This document shows positions 20,744-31,813 of a DNA stretch of 64,000 nucleotides, piece after piece. The stretch lies in contig NZ_CAAHFG010000001.1 in the NCBI RefSeq assembly GCF_900890425.1, positions 3,906,001 through 3,970,000 on the forward strand. Reading direction: 5' to 3'. The translations under genes and the position numbers were made by a program. Numbering within the stretch: the stretch's first letter is position 1; every line of letters begins with the position of its first letter. Under the pieces are notes generated by a model that worked only from the letters and a program-made list of their open reading frames with translations, did no database searches and was not told where the DNA came from. The stretch comes from Pontiella desulfatans. Its GTDB lineage: Bacteria; Verrucomicrobiota; Kiritimatiellia; Kiritimatiellales; Pontiellaceae.

Positions 20744-23700
20744 TTAAGATTGGGGGTAGGCGCAAATCAACTCTTCTTTTGACTCCTTAAATAACAGAAC
20801 CAATTGCCCATTATGAACAACAGAAATTAAATCCATCTCACCAAACTTGTCAGGAAAGACGTACCCAGTTGAAGCCATCAAATTATTAGCAATCCTGTAT
20901 GTACGCCCAAACTTCCCTTTCTCATTCTTGCCCTCATAAATAGCAAGCTGGTGATTCCCATCATTTCCAACATAATATTTTTGCTTATGCTCTCGCCCCT
21001 TTTTCTGCGAAACATCTCTTTGACCCTTCAATTCAATCGGATTAGTAAGCGGAGAGTAAACTCGCACTTTCTTGATTGGAACCGGAGCACCGTTTTTATT
21101 TGGCAGACAGTAGAGACCGTTTAGTTGCGATTCCATCTCTGCAATTTCCGCATCCAACTCAGCCTCCCGCTCTTCTGTAGAAGTAGCCCGCTGCTTCTTC
21201 AGCTTCTCAATAGCCTTTATAATACACGTTTCTTTCTCTCGACCTGCTTGCGCTATTTCCCGCACCCGATCATCCACAATCTTTTTCAAATCGGACTCGG
21301 AAAGATCGGCAAGTGATTTTCGCACCACATATTTAGTGCTTTCTTTTCCCGACTCTTTATCCAACCGCTTAATCGCCCCATAGAAGGTGTCTTGATGCAA
21401 CGATCCGCGCGCGGTTTTACCCTGCATCACAATGGGGTTCCCATTTTTACCAGTTACAACCTTCCCGCGTTTCCTCAAAAGCTTTTTGGTCTGTTTTAGC
21501 AAGTGGTTGGGTACGTAGTGCGAAACAAGAATCTCGTTTTTGAGCACCTTCATATCTTCCGCAAACGTTTCCCATGGCTTTTTCAGGTGCGGCTTGCGAG
21601 GGACAGACGGATCATTTTGCTCATAACTCTCATAGTCATGATAAAATGCCGCAAGTTTGTCGTACTGGTTTCGCGTTAAACATGCGCAAACAATTGCATC
21701 GACGGTGTGGTGCGTATGATTGTCGCGGGATTTTTCTTCCAGCCCCCACTCTTTACGGCAGGCATCCGTTGTTTTCCCACTCACGCTATGGACGGTTTTG
21801 AACAGGGAGTTCAGATAAAGCCGCGCGTACTTCGTGATGATGCGTGTATCCACCAGTTGGCTGTTTTTAAACCCAGCCTTCACTTCCTCCATCGTAAAGC
21901 GGCGATATTTTTCGCGCAAATAGTCGCGCTCATACTGCAACAACAACCGGGCTTGGATGGCGCTGTCTTTTGCCTCTTTTGTCGCAGCCGCCCGGCTGGC
22001 GCCCACCTTCTTTTCCACCTGAAAATGAAGCCTGTCTGCCTCATCTTTCCAATGCTGAACTCGACTTAGAATCTGATCATAGTCCTCGCAATCAAAAGGT
22101 ATCCGGTTTTTCTTTTTCCGATTACATTCTCGATGAGTTATGGTTTTATTTTCCTGCGAATTATCACAACACAGGCTTCGAGGAATCGTATGCTCGATTT
22201 CCGTCTCGGCAGAGAGCATCTGGCTTGCAGAAATTTCATTCCCGCAATAGATGCACCGATGGCTTTGCTCCTCCCAAAGCTTATATTTCAAAATCTCATC
22301 ATCGCCGGCTTTCCGCTCCAAATCTTTTTCTATTTGTTCAGCATAACCCTTTCGCTTGTTTTCATTCTTTTTATTCCAGCGACGCAACGCGGTGCGCTTG
22401 TTGGCATCATTCATTTCGCGAGCCATTTCGACATGGACAATGGTTTGATCGTTTATCACGCCTTGCTTGAGCAACTCGTTAACAACCGCCTTGAGCCGGT
22501 GCATCGCCCGCATGAACACAGGATTCTTGATAGAAGAAATGCAAGGACTCTCTAGATACAGCTTCCCATCGTCAGCCCGCTTTGCGGGCTTATACGTCTC
22601 CTCCTTTGAAGGGTGATACAGAGATTTTGTACGACCTTCAGGTACCCCAAAGCGATCCACCAAATAGCCAGCAACGCGCTCCTCTAGGCGGGGAACAGGA
22701 ACAAATTCGCCGTTATGTTCGTTAATTTGGCATTGAACAACGGCGGCAACCGAATCAGAAAACTCCGTTCGGTCACGCAGATCATATTTCTGCTCAAACT
22801 GATACGGGCTTTGTTTAAATTCTCTCAGCAATTCATTTGCTGATCTCAAAGCACGGGTCAGTTGGGTATGCGTGTCAATAAGTCCTTCAATGTCAGCCTT
22901 CAACCCAGGATCTTCTTCGATCGTCGTTCCAACAACCTTCTTTAAATTCGCAAAGAAGACCGCATGGGAATAAATCAACCCTTGTTCCAAATACGGCAAT
23001 ATCTTACTGATAGCCTTCAGGCTTAACGAGGCATATCCCTGCTTCAACTGAATCATCGCAAACTTCTTCGCCATTTCAGCGTCCAGCCCGAGATTCACCG
23101 TTGCCCAGGAAACTACATTTTCCTCATCATTGAACGAAAACAGGACATTCCAAACTTCATTCAAAATATCCTGCGCGGATTTATTTTCACGATTGCCCGT
23201 ATATCTCTCTGATATAGCCGACTGGTAATCCTCTCCAAAAATAGTTTTCAACCTAGAAATCGTAGGACAGCCCGCCAACGACTGGTAATCTTTATAATTA
23301 AAAATTGCGCCCTTGTTTTTCCCCTTAGATAACTCCTTGGAAATATCCTTAAAATCAAAATTGGCTTTGCTCACACGGAAAAACTTCGCCTTTGCTTTTT
23401 CAAACTCCTCTTCCGAAAGAACCCGAAACTCCTCTGACTCGCTGAATTTTATCTTGATATTGTTTAGCACCTGCAACATGCGGAACTCTTCAAACAGAGG
23501 ATGCGAAACCGGGCAGCGTTTTTTATTTGGCTCAAAAGGACAATTTGCAACAGAACCCTTTTGCGACTTCAAAGGGCGTTGGAAAAAAATCGCCTTCAGC
23601 AACTTCTCTTTCAAGTCAGCAGGAATTGATTGCTTCTCACAGATTACTTCAAACTCAGCCAAATAGTGGTCATCGCGAGACGTATGCACTTTTCGGGTCG

Positions 23701-24331
23701 GCTTTCCTTCTCGATAGCAATCCTCCCAGAAATATTGCCCCAGCGTCCGCTCACCCATCTTTTTGGACAGCTCAGCAATTTCAGTTTTCACAACACCGCT
23801 TTCCTCATCGGGCGTCGAGTCCAGCCGATTGCTCTTGAAACCGCGGCGTTGTGCCATGTGGTAGAAAACGCGGCCAATTTTAAAACGATCCTCCTCCTTA
23901 TCCAAATTCAGGACTTCTGACGCCGCCAACCATCGGAAATAATAAGGATTCTTAGAGTCCGCCTCCGACGTCTTGCACCACGCCCGAAACGCTGGATTTT
24001 CAGGATAAATCTTTTTCGACTGCCAATCCTTAAGTTCGTCAATTGACAATGCAGGACAATATCCTGCCTCAGAAAGTGCCTTCAATGTCTGGATTTTGCG
24101 CAACTTGCGGCGAAACTTGATTCGCCGAGCCGCGCGATGGCCCGTCCGCTCAGATGCCTTCGAAGACTCCACTCCTTTTTCCGTCTTCACCCCTTCCTGA
24201 AAAATATGAACCCCGCGATATTCAAACCCATCATCACGCTTTACGATTTCAAATCCGCCATCGACTTCATCTACCACCGCCCAGCCGATGCTGTTGGTGC
24301 CCAGATCCAAACCCAGAATGCGCTTTCCCAT
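20744..24331 (-). pseudogene. cas9: Cas9 endonuclease (type II-C), 3'-truncated by frameshift and IS insertion
   Basis: 1195 codons remain. RuvC-I contains LGLDLGTNSIGW (D9). An Arg-rich bridge helix (RTGHRAARRIKFRRKLRK) lies at ~62-80, RuvC-II is IVHVEMAREM (E635), the HNH domain at ~690-745 has CxxC pairs and EIEHTIPRS (H714), and RuvC-III is HHTVDAIV (H875, D878). All nuclease residues are present. The frame stops at 20744, after a five-C tract (20752-20756); with four Cs it would read YPNLKPRIGEL and continue into the fragment beyond the IS, restoring about 1330 residues. The product therefore lacks ~137 C-terminal residues needed for PAM recognition. The start has AAAGGAAAAT upstream. 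Some truncated protein may still be made. Confidence 0.9.
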
Positions 24332-28591: not shown

Positions 28592-30430
28592 ATGAAAACA
28601 CACATTTCCTGGCCCCATGCCCCACCGCATCGACTCCTCGAAAAAGGAACCTATATCGTCACCTGCGGCACCCATCAGAAACAGCACATCCTCAATACCT
28701 CGCAAAAACTCACCCTCGTCCGCGATCTGCTGTTTGAGCTGGCGAACAAATATGACTGGCAGCTTCAAGCCTGGGCCATCCTATCCAACCACTACCATTT
28801 TGTGGCCGGCTCCCCCGATGATACCACCACGCTCAAAAAAATGCTTTCCACTCTCCACACCCTGTCCGCTCGCGACATCAATCGCATAGACAACACGCAA
28901 GGCCGCAAAGTCTGGTACAACTATTACGACTCCCGCATCACCTACGAAAAATCATGGCTCGCCCGCCTCAAATATGTCCACCACAATCCGGTGCACCATG
29001 GAGTCGTAGAAAACGCCGAGCTGTATGAATGGTGCTCCGCCGCCTGGTTCGCCCGCGAATCGCCGAACGCCTTCGTCAAAACCGTCAACAGCTTCAAAAT
29101 TGATCAGGTTAAGGTCTATGATGATTTCGGAGTGCGCCAGCTTGATGGCGCTTTAAGATCGGGCAGCTCGATGCCCGAAGATATGGAGTGCGGTGGCTCG
29201 ACACCGCTTTTAAATACGCCCGCAAAGCAATCTAACAGCGCTCTCAAGCGAGCGCACTCCAAAGAGGCTTCGCCTCAATTTAAAAGCGCCGTCACGCGAA
29301 GCGAGTCTGAACACCTGCAAGACAACCCGCAGGACTCCAAAGCGGTCTCAAGCGAGCGCACTCCAAAGCAGCTGCGCTGCAAATACTGCAACTCTACCGC
29401 CATCGTAAAAGCAGGTACCCGCAAGCTTAAATCCGGCATCAAGCAACTCTACAAATGCAATGACTGCCTGCGAAAGTTTTCCAGCCTGCATCGCAATGCC
29501 AAACAGACCGATCCCGAAATCATCCTCAAATCCCTCATTGCCGCCTGCCGCTCCGCCAGCTACGAAGAGATCCGGCGCTTCATCGAACGTCGATACCAAA
29601 GAAGCATTTCCACCAGTGCCATTTCCAAATGGGTCAAGGAATACAATCCGCCCTATCTCAAAAAGCGGGCAAAAAATAATGCCGTCTCCAAAATCGTCAT
29701 CTCCAACGTCTTCACCCACCGCGACCTCAACTACAACTTCCAGATTCATGTTCCCAAGCTCGCGGATTGCCCATTGAAAGAATTGAAGGAATACTTGGTC
29801 AAGCTGCCCGGATCCATCGACCACCACACCTTTGAAACCGCAAGCCGATGCTCGCAATGGCTCAACCCCAGCCTGAACATTAACGTGAAGCACTCCCAAA
29901 ACACCCAGGCCTGCAAGGACGCCCTCAAAGCCCTCCAGTTCGCCAAAACCAATTATCAGCGGCATGATGTTGTTGAACAGTTCATGCTCAACTGCGACTG
30001 CTATACGATTGCCAGCGAAGTGCCTGTTTGGATGAGCCTTTCGGAGTGCGCAGGCTCGACTGCGCTTTCAAACCAGGGCGGCTCGACGCCCGACACATCC
30101 GCACCGCAAAATATGGAGTGCGCAGGCTCGACTGCGCTTTCAAACACCCCCGCACCGCAATCTTCGAAAAGCGGTGTCGAGCGGCTATCGCGGGCCTTCG
30201 GCCCACCGCACTCCGAAACAGTTTCCGGCCACATCGACCTCCTTCAATGGAAGTTCAACACCCTCTACATCCTCGACTTCAAGCCCAACACCAGAAAAGA
30301 AAACAAACAGAAAGTGGCCAGTCAGTTGAGTCTGTATGCGATGGCGCTCTCAGTGCGGGCGGGAGTGCCGATGGATCGCATGCGCTGCGCCTGGTTTGAT
30401 GGCGAGGACTTTTATAGCTTTAAGCCGTAA
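28592..30430 (+). CDS. RAYT-type tyrosine transposase fused to a zinc ribbon and PD-(D/E)XK nuclease
   Basis: 612 residues. Residues 1-155 are a REP-associated tyrosine transposase (Y1/HUH) domain: HUH motif NHYHF (H67, H69) and the likely catalytic Tyr in LKYVHHNP (Y128). Residues 180-260 are a low-complexity linker translated from hairpin repeats. A zinc ribbon follows (C263-x2-C266 and C289-x2-C292) with a helix-turn-helix-like segment at ~305-350. The C-terminus is a PD-(D/E)XK nuclease of the RecB type: E476 in SEVPVW, D549 in GHIDLL, LDFK with D562 and K564, and QLSLY (Q578, Y582). Residues ~484-545, between E476 and D549, are again hairpin-repeat peptides (ECAGSTALSN). The gene is flanked by the same repeats. 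Activity is inferred from motifs. Confidence 0.78.
   Translation: MKTHISWPHAPPHRLLEKGTYIVTCGTHQKQHILNTSQKLTLVRDLLFELANKYDWQLQAWAILSNHYHFVAGSPDDTTTLKKMLSTLHTLSARDINRIDNTQGRKVWYNYYDSRITYEKSWLARLKYVHHNPVHHGVVENAELYEWCSAAWFARESPNAFVKTVNSFKIDQVKVYDDFGVRQLDGALRSGSSMPEDMECGGSTPLLNTPAKQSNSALKRAHSKEASPQFKSAVTRSESEHLQDNPQDSKAVSSERTPKQLRCKYCNSTAIVKAGTRKLKSGIKQLYKCNDCLRKFSSLHRNAKQTDPEIILKSLIAACRSASYEEIRRFIERRYQRSISTSAISKWVKEYNPPYLKKRAKNNAVSKIVISNVFTHRDLNYNFQIHVPKLADCPLKELKEYLVKLPGSIDHHTFETASRCSQWLNPSLNINVKHSQNTQACKDALKALQFAKTNYQRHDVVEQFMLNCDCYTIASEVPVWMSLSECAGSTALSNQGGSTPDTSAPQNMECAGSTALSNTPAPQSSKSGVERLSRAFGPPHSETVSGHIDLLQWKFNTLYILDFKPNTRKENKQKVASQLSLYAMALSVRAGVPMDRMRCAWFDGEDFYSFKP
29129..29156 (+). repeat. 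REP-like hairpin 1 (in the RAYT fusion gene)
   Basis: GGAGTGCGCCA-GCTTGA-TGGCGCTTT: a perfect 6-bp stem GCGCCA/TGGCGC with the conserved GCTTGA loop. It is translated as VRQLDGALRS. Confidence 0.82.
29160..29177. repeat. Short REP-like hairpin with GCTCGA loop
   Basis: CGGGCA-GCTCGA-TGCCCG: a perfect 6-bp stem with the same loop but without the GGAGTG and CTTT flanks. Confidence 0.68.
29185..29214 (+). repeat. REP-like hairpin 2
   Basis: GGAGTGCGGTG-GCTCGA-CACCGCTTTTAAA: perfect stem GCGGTG/CACCGC. It is translated as ECGGSTPLLN. Confidence 0.85.
29237..29260 (-). repeat. REP-like hairpin 3 (inverted)
   Basis: On the minus strand GGAGTGCGCTC-GCTTGA-GAGCGC: a perfect stem. It lies opposite to copy 2, giving a paired (BIME-like) arrangement. 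Confidence 0.82.
29338..29364 (-). repeat. REP-like hairpin 4 (inverted)
   Basis: On the minus strand GGAGTGCGCTC-GCTTGA-GACCGCTTT: the stem has one mismatch. It is translated as AVSSERTP just before the zinc ribbon. Confidence 0.78.
30043..30072 (+). repeat. REP-like hairpin 5
   Basis: GGAGTGCGCAG-GCTCGA-CTGCGCTTTCAAA: a perfect stem. It is translated as ECAGSTALSN inside the nuclease domain. Confidence 0.86.
30076..30091. repeat. Short REP-like hairpin with GCTCGA loop
   Basis: GGGCG-GCTCGA-CGCCC: a perfect 5-bp stem, between hairpins 5 and 6. Confidence 0.62.
30115..30144 (+). repeat. REP-like hairpin 6
   Basis: Identical to hairpin 5 over GGAGTG...CTTTCAAA, and again translated as ECAGSTALSN. 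Confidence 0.86.
30167..30214 (-). repeat. REP-like hairpin 7 with an enlarged loop (inverted)
   Basis: Stem GCGGTG/CACCGC and flanking GGAGTG and CTTT as in the family, but about 21 bp containing GGGCCTTCGGCCC is inserted next to the TCGAGC loop. Confidence 0.72.
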
Positions 30431-30867
30431 AAGCATATGGAGTGCGGGCGCTTGAGACCGCTTTAAAACAAACCAGTAAAGCACTATAGTGTGGCGGGTG
30501 TTTTGCAATTGCTCAGACCCGCTTCGCAGACACCGCTTTCAAACGCTAACGGTCTGCAATCTAAAAACGAAGTCGATCTTCTGTAGCCGCCCCACTGGTC
30601 GCCGTTCTCATACATTTTATACGTATAGTCTCGAACCCCGATTTATATCGTTGTATATGAAGCATTATGATTCTCAAGCAGCACATTAATGGAACCGGAT
30701 ATAAGACAACTGACCTGAGCCCATAAACTTGGACAGTTTCAAATGAGAGTAACACTTGTACAGACTCAGTTGTCTATGTTTATGATTCGGCAGATTGTAG
30801 TTAGCAGTTGTAACTAGTAGGGGATAACAAACAAAAGGTTTAAAAACTAAATTGAAGTATTTTAGAT
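30431..30867. other. Gene-free gap: repeat hairpin then A+T-rich DNA
   Basis: It begins with REP-like hairpin 8 (30439-30468) and a decayed copy around 30516-30560 (GACCCGCTTCGCAGACACCGCTTTC). From about 30600 the base composition falls sharply in G+C up to the next gene. No gene was recognised in it. Confidence 0.55.
30439..30468 (+). repeat. REP-like hairpin 8, just after the RAYT fusion gene
   Basis: GGAGTGCGGGC-GCTTGA-GACCGCTTTAAAA: the stem has one mismatch. It starts eight bases after the stop codon. Confidence 0.8.
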
Positions 30868-31782
30868 ATGAGAAAAGAATTGAAGTGTTTATTGACAGCA
30901 GGATTGGCTTTGGGGAGTGTTTTTCCCATGGCTAAGGGACAAGCTTCGGCTACAAATCTTTCAGTTAATTTAGAACCTGTAGTTGTGGGAGAAAATTATG
31001 AAATTAATCAAACCTTGAAGAATAGTACTCCTGGAAGTCCTGGAGATGTTAGCAAGTCATATAACCAAATAGTGATTAGTGAAAATCTTTTAAATAGTGG
31101 ATGTTTCGGATTTCAGACTCCTGCCTTAGATTGGGAACATAGTTTAGTCCCCAATAATTTAAGTAAATTGGGATATACTACAAACTCTGTAAATTGGCAT
31201 AGGCCCAGTGCGAATAGGGATTACACCTACGAAGTCCCAACAAACTCAGTAATCGGCTGGCACTTCGTTCCAGCAACATTTACTGCGAATAATGGAGATA
31301 CTGCAAATTTAGATGGTGGATTTAAGGTGCCAATCACACGTTTGAAACAAACAACAAATGGAGTTAGTTTTGGTTGGTTATATGATCATGATTTAGTTCC
31401 AAAAGATGCAAATGGGTTGGTGAATAGTTCTGCAACTTTCGAAGCTGCAGATCTTGAGGACCCAGATGGTGATGGGCTTCTTAATTGGCAAGAGTATATT
31501 GCTGGTACAAACCCAACCAATGCCAATGATTACTTCAGAGCGGAGATTGAATCTACAATCAATCGTGTGATTGGGGAGAAACCTTATCCAAATCTTGAGA
31601 ATAGAATTTATTGGACCCCAAACATTACCAATAGAGCATTTGGTGTTGAGTTTAATACCAACTTAGTTGAAGGGGCTGGCTGGCAAAACCTTGAGACTGT
31701 TACAAATAATGCGGGTTATGTTGTTGATACAAATAACTTTAACGCGGGTTATTATAGGATTGGCATTGGCTTGGTGGAGTAG
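30868..31782 (+). CDS. Secreted A+T-rich protein with a calcium-binding DPDGDG motif
   Basis: 304 residues. A signal peptide (LKCLLTAGLALGSVFPMAKGQA) is followed by a Ser/Asn/Thr-rich beta-type region. Near residue 195-215, DLEDPDGDGLLNWQEYIAGTNPTN is a thrombospondin type-3/dockerin-like calcium-binding motif that is very common in exported proteins of Verrucomicrobia and Kiritimatiellota. The C-terminal part (IYWTPNITNRAFGVEFNTNLVEGAGWQNLETV) matches the beta-sandwich tail often following that motif. The gene is clearly richer in A+T than its neighbours, has no recognisable ribosome site, and ends next to a REP-like hairpin, suggesting recent acquisition. Function unknown. Confidence 0.75.
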   Translation: MRKELKCLLTAGLALGSVFPMAKGQASATNLSVNLEPVVVGENYEINQTLKNSTPGSPGDVSKSYNQIVISENLLNSGCFGFQTPALDWEHSLVPNNLSKLGYTTNSVNWHRPSANRDYTYEVPTNSVIGWHFVPATFTANNGDTANLDGGFKVPITRLKQTTNGVSFGWLYDHDLVPKDANGLVNSSATFEAADLEDPDGDGLLNWQEYIAGTNPTNANDYFRAEIESTINRVIGEKPYPNLENRIYWTPNITNRAFGVEFNTNLVEGAGWQNLETVTNNAGYVVDTNNFNAGYYRIGIGLVE

Positions 31783-31783
31783 A

Positions 31784-31813
31784 TTTAAAAGCGCTGTCGA
31801 GCCAGCGCACTCC
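31784..31813 (-). repeat. REP-like hairpin 9 (inverted)
   Basis: On the minus strand GGAGTGCGCTG-GCTCGA-CAGCGCTTTTAAA: a perfect stem, immediately after the stop of the secreted protein gene. Confidence 0.86.

Follow-up and report, generated by a model that had tools for sequence, protein, structure and literature searches.

A REPtron and a zinc-ribbon PD-(D/E)XK nuclease gene linked through REPs in the family of Pontiella desulfatans

In the bacterial family of Pontiella desulfatans, two genes are linked through REPs: one for a REP-associated tyrosine transposase (RAYT), the other for a nuclease that combines a zinc ribbon (ZnR), a helix-turn-helix (HTH) and a RecB/Cas4-type PD-(D/E)XK domain. 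In the 64,000 nucleotides of DNA that we analysed (the window, from a genome of 8,658,305 bases in 6 contigs), the two form, as assembled, a single open frame of 612 codons without an internal stop (28592-30430, forward strand). We read the locus as a REPtron that captured a standalone ZnR-HTH-nuclease gene, the pair probably spreading the REPs or the whole element jointly; we infer the joint action and put this reading at about 60%. The parts themselves are known; what appears to be new is their combination, which was not found in the open-access papers searched.

The composite reading frame and its domains

The original prediction, that one frame encodes a RAYT, a DNA-binding module of zinc ribbon and HTH, and a PD-(D/E)XK nuclease of the RecB type, holds for the assembled sequence. 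The catalytic residues are intact, and each of the motifs named was located: NHYHF (residues 66-70), Y128, the cysteines 263, 266, 289 and 292, E476, D549, D562-x-K564, Q578 and Y582. To these we add two REP-encoded stretches, aa 180-260 and aa 481-543. A minus-strand ORF of 205 aa (29348-29965), which lies opposite the conserved coding strand, is taken as spurious.

The RAYT (TnpA_REP) domain, a Y1 HUH transposase, spans aa 1-179 (28592-29128, +). The NCBIfam equivalog NF047646 (REP_Tyr_transpos) matches aa 17-148 with 87.4 bits (cut-off 80), and Y1_Tnp (PF01797), the family to which this part had been ascribed, scores 25 bits (cut-off 23). The HUH motif (N66-HYH-F70) and the catalytic tyrosine (Y128) lie in the Y1 core; a phmmer search of the PDB with aa 1-183 returned one relative, TnpA_REP 4er8, with which both HUH and Tyr align. 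Against three orthologues, the dN/dS of the domain is 0.12-0.13 (NG86). Its fold assignment is based on the profiles: in the structure prediction, the ZnR-HTH-nuclease part has a pLDDT mostly >90, whereas the RAYT domain is poorly modelled. Scans of Pfam and NCBIfam gave no TnpB match for the window protein.

The C-terminal half begins with a four-Cys zinc ribbon of the IS1/IS1595 transposase type (aa 261-300; 29372-29491, +; C263, C266, C289 and C292; NF050000/NF048018/NF033558), followed by an HTH in the AF model (aa 306-352; 29507-29647, +), the two together spanning aa 261-352. Next come, by alignment and model, a middle region and the first nuclease part with E476 (aa 353-480; 29648-30031, +); the second PD-(D/E)XK part, with G546-H-I-D549, D562-x-K564, Q578 and Y582, completes the frame and includes the stop (aa 544-612; 30221-30430, +). 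The nuclease domain of the RecB/Cas4 type consists of aa 469-480 and 544-612. In a 48-sequence alignment of the nuclease family, E476, G546-H-I-D549, D562, K564, Q578 and Y582 are invariant, and each of the four zinc-ribbon cysteines is at least 90% conserved.

The IS1/IS1595 zinc domain scores 25.9 in the window protein (cut-off 28) and matches 45 of the 48 family members. With the IS1/IS1595 profile, aa 263-365 align to positions 1-93 of 199 (31.6; cut-off 100). An IS1-like DDE transposase was considered and rejected: the match is confined to the N-terminal zinc/HTH part, and the DDE catalytic domain is without a match. For the predicted PD-(D/E)XK part, 41 of 48 family members match PF12705 (PDDEXK_1), and the window protein itself scores just under the cut-off (21.8; cut-off 22); the relatives L013 and L014 pass with 24.7 and 22.5.

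The structural model of a standalone homologue (L083) compares best with DinG (Z 8.6), SSO0001 (Z 7.7) and AddAB (Z 7.5), these three over 114-126 residues, a modest range that, MGME1 included, runs from Z 7 to 8.6 over 114-129 residues; Foldseek ranked AddAB, SSO0001 and RecBCD at the top for a standalone homologue, with no E-value <0.001. The E...GHID...DxK...QxxxY motif, invariant in the 48 sequences, agrees with the RecB/Cas4-type assignment. The homologous HTH segment of the standalone protein resembles, in structure comparison, the HTH domains of ISCth4, Mos1, TnsB and MuA.

REPs inside and around the frame

The REP consensus, TGGAGTGCGcnGGCTCGACnGCGCTTT, is palindromic, and REPs encode both aa 180-260 and aa 481-543. 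The strict REP pattern occurs 7 times in the window, always within 29129-31813 (expected: 0), and 11 times genome-wide (8.66 Mb; reversed control: 0), 7 of these at the RAYT-nuclease locus; the four others are apparently intergenic, e.g., behind a groEL-like gene. No match was found in Rfam. In 19 distinct aligned copies, 98.2% of the cells of the six-pair stem are paired, with 25 double changes, a level that none of 500 shuffles attained. In a wider set of 35 REP instances, 100 of the 105 pairs at variable positions are Watson-Crick, the shuffle maximum being 62. Canonical REPs are hairpins with a conserved 5′ tetranucleotide, GT[AG]G, found beside a RAYT (PMC3686654). Here, the foot is GGAG in 20 of 20 aligned copies and the canonical foot is absent; our claim is, therefore, one of a RAYT with non-canonical REPs.

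Four hairpins lie in the linker between the RAYT and the zinc ribbon (aa 180-260; 29129-29371, +): REP 1 (29129-29154, +), whose phase determines read-through or stop, REP 2 (29185-29210, +), REP 3 (29235-29260, −; one mismatch to the consensus) and REP 4 (29339-29364, −). Two more, REP 5 (30043-30068, +) and REP 6 (30115-30140, +), also inside the ORF, lie in the insertion in the nuclease (aa 481-543; 30032-30220, +), at a β-hairpin loop between E476 and D549. In the model of the window protein, this insertion appears as a low-pLDDT loop flanked by two confident strands; it is missing from the standalone nuclease homologues and common to two related genomes, G404 and G699 (see below). REP 7 (30439-30464, +) is directly 3′ of the ORF, and REP 8 (31788-31813, −) is an outer copy further downstream. 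The flanking by the same hairpins, as anticipated, is borne out, and hairpins lie within the coding sequence as well, where they form the joints between its parts.

By eye, the REP consensus can be read through in five of its six frames, so that inserting it in frame costs little; this openness may also be why the linker and a surface loop tolerate REPs. The two other forward frames of the linker region contain 2 and 4 stops.

One polypeptide or two genes

The linkage of the RAYT and nuclease genes is independent of the single-protein question. The one-polypeptide state, known from the sequence of one genome, depends on the phase of one REP. As assembled, the junction of RAYT and REP 1 reads TTTCGGAG; with one extra T (TTTTCGGAG), the RAYT would end inside the first REP, ...YDDFECASLMAL*. 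The locus may thus hold two adjacent genes, a RAYT that stops in REP 1 and a ZnR-HTH-nuclease that starts from ATG 29171 or ATG 29183, the joined frame being due to a sequencing error or to neutral, recent read-through; we regard this as somewhat unlikely, albeit a chance of real weight. Besides the effect of the +1 shift and the two in-frame ATGs downstream of the junction, it accords with the RAYT orthologues of G699 and G393, whose stop lies inside the first REP (REP 1 of the window is in another phase), and with the openness of REPs in most frames, by which an open linker is not rare: the chance by composition is 0.11 for the linker and 0.05 for linker and insert jointly. The assembly, however, shows a single stop-free frame over all 612 codons, the run in question is merely TTT, and the RAYT of G396 likewise reads past its first REPs, for ~65 more codons.

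Relatives of the composite, its history and selection

No second uninterrupted fused frame came to light in 388 phylum genomes, in two classes with 384 and 346 genomes or at 80 loci listed from 84,980 species; at that depth of search, a recurring fused family was rejected. The expectation that the architecture recurs is, nevertheless, borne out in part by the linked RAYT-REP-nuclease composite, which recurs in broken form in G699, from another genus of the family. G699 carries RAYT, REPs and the nuclease C-part (nucC) in the order, strand and frame of the window, with one stop (the shared frame has a 1 in 3 probability by chance); the segment missing from it is exactly the one that the two REP clusters enclose in the window. 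Among 28 genomes surveyed in the genus, G404 holds a REP, the zinc ribbon, the N-part of the nuclease and the REP insertion, without a RAYT and with losses, and G160 the nuclease tail alone, abutting a REP; these nuclease/REP remnants again include no intact fused frame. G396 and G393 have RAYT and REPs without the nuclease, with 79% and 71% RAYT amino acid identity, respectively, to the window in tblastn segments.

Most simply, the RAYT-nuclease linkage is older than the split of the two genera, and, in the simplest reading, the REPs are the breakpoints of the composite's losses. The nuclease's REP insertion is both shared and old. As most RAYT orthologues of the genus are without the nuclease, and as only broken remnants occur in three other lineages, the two partners are not essential to each other.

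On NG86 estimates from the coding sequences, the RAYT, zinc ribbon and nuclease segments have all evolved under strong purifying selection. Against G699, dN/dS is 0.13 for the RAYT and 0.08 for the nuclease C-part, at equal dS (1.26 and 1.21, respectively); against G404, it is 0.14 for the zinc ribbon and 0.09 for the nuclease N-part. The REP insert stands at 0.70, as compared to 0.08-0.14 in the enzyme parts: these ratios are approximate, because the samples comprise 33-179 codons with dS mostly near or above 1, and the contrast is clear. It bears on a further explanation, in which REP-REP recombination joined the RAYT and the nuclease gene into a decaying chimera, both becoming pseudogenes. 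The broken versions in G404, G160 and G699, with losses bounded by REPs, would suit decay, as would 63 REP-encoded residues within a nuclease. Yet, low dN/dS characterises each enzyme part, unlike the insert, the catalytic residues are all intact, and the insertion sits in a loop with the modelled fold preserved; we consider decay improbable.

A widespread family of standalone nucleases

The frame had been thought to encode a new kind of enzyme. This is not supported in that form: its ZnR-HTH-nuclease half belongs to a pre-existing, widespread standalone family, which points to capture and fusion instead, and a new three-domain invention was rejected. An alignment-based search of 84,980 species gave 126 ZnR-HTH-nuclease relatives; the description of the family rests on 80 of them, and the alignment and profile counts on 48 sequences. 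The standalone members, mostly about 300-440 aa long, occur in archaea (Thermoplasmata, Woese-, Nano- and Aenigmarchaeota, Methanoperedens) and in bacteria (Omnitrophota, Patescibacteria, Chloroflexi, few Verrucomicrobiota/Lentisphaerota). Among the 48 aligned members, the window protein alone has the RAYT profile, and, in the tree, its nuclease groups with the standalone Verrucomicrobiota/Lentisphaerota copies (support 100/95). One standalone nuclease of Omnitrophota (L114) has a RAYT about 2 kb off, unfused. No relatives were found in viral contigs, phages or plasmids.

The nuclease gene of Patescibacteria and Omnitrophota is often adjacent to genes for large repeat-rich (surface or tail-like) proteins. 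In about 24 of the loci L099-L154, it adjoins a gene for a small, ~150-aa protein of a four-helix type ('KPVRSFRDLEVYQKT'), weakly 23S_rRNA_IVP-like (e.g., L122:3082-3540 and L126:2391-2843), which is a likely accessory partner of the standalone nuclease.

Of the 80 standalone loci, no more than a handful show split inteins. In L126, the nuclease (NUC 482-1798) sits between an intein N-half (TIGR01445) and a C-half (TIGR01443), above cut-off; in L138, L154 and L123, an intein half beside the nuclease is profile-confirmed on one side each. An intein C-half also occurs in L125, about 2 kb from the nuclease and on the opposite strand. “Fractured genes”, in which a split intein is accompanied by a free-standing gene for an endonuclease, were reportedly described by Dassa et al. 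in 2009; their endonuclease is said to be Vsr-like, as against the RecB/Cas4-like family here. In likeness to them, some of the standalone relatives in Patescibacteria lie between intein halves; by difference, the window locus is without an intein. At such split inteins, the standalone nuclease lies where a homing endonuclease gene would be expected, which suggests that these proteins may constitute an unnamed homing-endonuclease family.

Two variants of the nuclease were noted. A 472-aa protein in G499 (L051:1480-2895, −) has the same nuclease C-part with an unrelated N-terminal region replacing the zinc ribbon. In G274 (L065 / L014:1216-2114, −), a Bro-N-like ORF in a different frame precedes the C-half of the nuclease, and the zinc-ribbon half is missing.

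A possible mechanism and its alternatives

There is no settled account of how REPs spread: RAYTs are able to nick them in vitro, but the transposition itself has yet to be understood. A RAYT-nuclease element provides a concrete hypothesis, namely, that a partner nuclease does the target-site cleavage or end-processing. By homology to TnpA_REP of E. coli, which acts on GTAG-hairpins, and of Stenotrophomonas (PMC8266576), the RAYT domain would bind and nick single-stranded GGAG-hairpins. Zinc ribbon and HTH would recruit the nuclease to double-stranded DNA, which it would cut or trim there, and that site would then receive a copy of the REPs, or of the entire element, by repair or strand transfer. 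The nuclease may be likened to TnpB aiding TnpA (IS200/IS605), or to a homing endonuclease spreading an intein. Homing-like cutting is not assured, since RecB/Cas4-type nucleases are often end-processing and not site-specific.

Rather unlikely, in our estimate, is the stronger version in which a single enzyme unites HUH/Tyr hairpin nicking with a zinc-ribbon-targeted RecB/Cas4 nuclease, so that the REPtron would open its own target sites. Such an enzyme could be seen, just as tentatively, as a PD-(D/E)XK counterpart of TnpA-TnpB with a homing-endonuclease-like origin, joined by its own repeats.

Alternatively, the protein could serve defence or another host function, the RAYT delivering an end-processing nuclease to single-stranded hairpins (foreign ssDNA, fork hairpins). 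The nearest folds are those of the nucleases Cas4, AddB, MGME1 and DinG, among which action on ssDNA or on ends is common, and PADLOC matches include DruK (E 0.0066) and PglZ (E 0.0074). All PADLOC matches are, however, weak (E about 0.007-0.012), and the ORFs read beside the window gene include none recognised as a defence gene. The standalone relatives are placed within inteins or next to repeat-rich surface proteins rather than in any recognised defence island; a defence or host role is, we think, improbable.

Comparison with known systems

The REPtron of the window shares with known REPtrons and RAYTs (E. coli, Stenotrophomonas, Marinomonas; PMC6006769, PMC8266576) the Y1 HUH core with its HUH and Tyr motifs and a RAYT gene between hairpin repeats that consist of a conserved 5′ tetranucleotide and a palindrome. 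It differs by the GGAG foot in place of GT[AG]G, by REPs inside the RAYT frame and by the attached nuclease. Several RAYT subclasses carry extra C-terminal domains (PMC6006769, PMC8266576), and further RAYT fusions may exist unreported, because a 2018 survey set unusually long proteins aside as fusions or annotation errors (PMC6006769).

IS200/IS605 elements also pair a Y1 transposase (TnpA) with a nuclease (TnpB) in one element, a likeness by analogy only: TnpB is RuvC-like and RNA-guided, whereas the window nuclease is of the PD-(D/E)XK type, in the same frame as the transposase, and the ends of the window element are REPs. From the RecB/Cas4/AddB/MGME1 nucleases (PF12705), with which it has the fold and the E...D...DxK...QxxxY motif in common, the window protein differs in being without the iron-sulphur Cys set or a helicase and in having an IS1-type zinc ribbon and a transposase-like HTH ahead of the nuclease. 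Intragenic REPs and Rickettsia palindromic elements form in-frame insertions of up to 43-82 residues, many of them in DNA-processing genes, and intragenic REPs may supply stop codons (PMC3733652). Here, by contrast, the REPs sit in the gene of the very transposase to which they belong and connect two enzymes; protein modules are both joined in frame and broken apart at these repeats.

The locus is a candidate for testing how REPs spread, in a host that is probably cultured. It also brings to light a large nuclease family, as yet unnamed, that combines zinc ribbon, HTH and RecB/Cas4 parts across archaea and Patescibacteria and lies partly inside split inteins, and the standalone nucleases in split inteins may turn out to be the more general result.

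Some ten more RAYT-like places occur in the same genome (L002 = G000:C1:2027441, L003, L007 and others); several are degenerate, and the closest is 54% identical. Finally, ~4 kb upstream of the composite frame, the minus strand of the window (20744-24331) holds a 1195-aa ORF that resembles type II Cas9, with a RuvC start, GLDLGTNSIGWAV, and an HNH segment.
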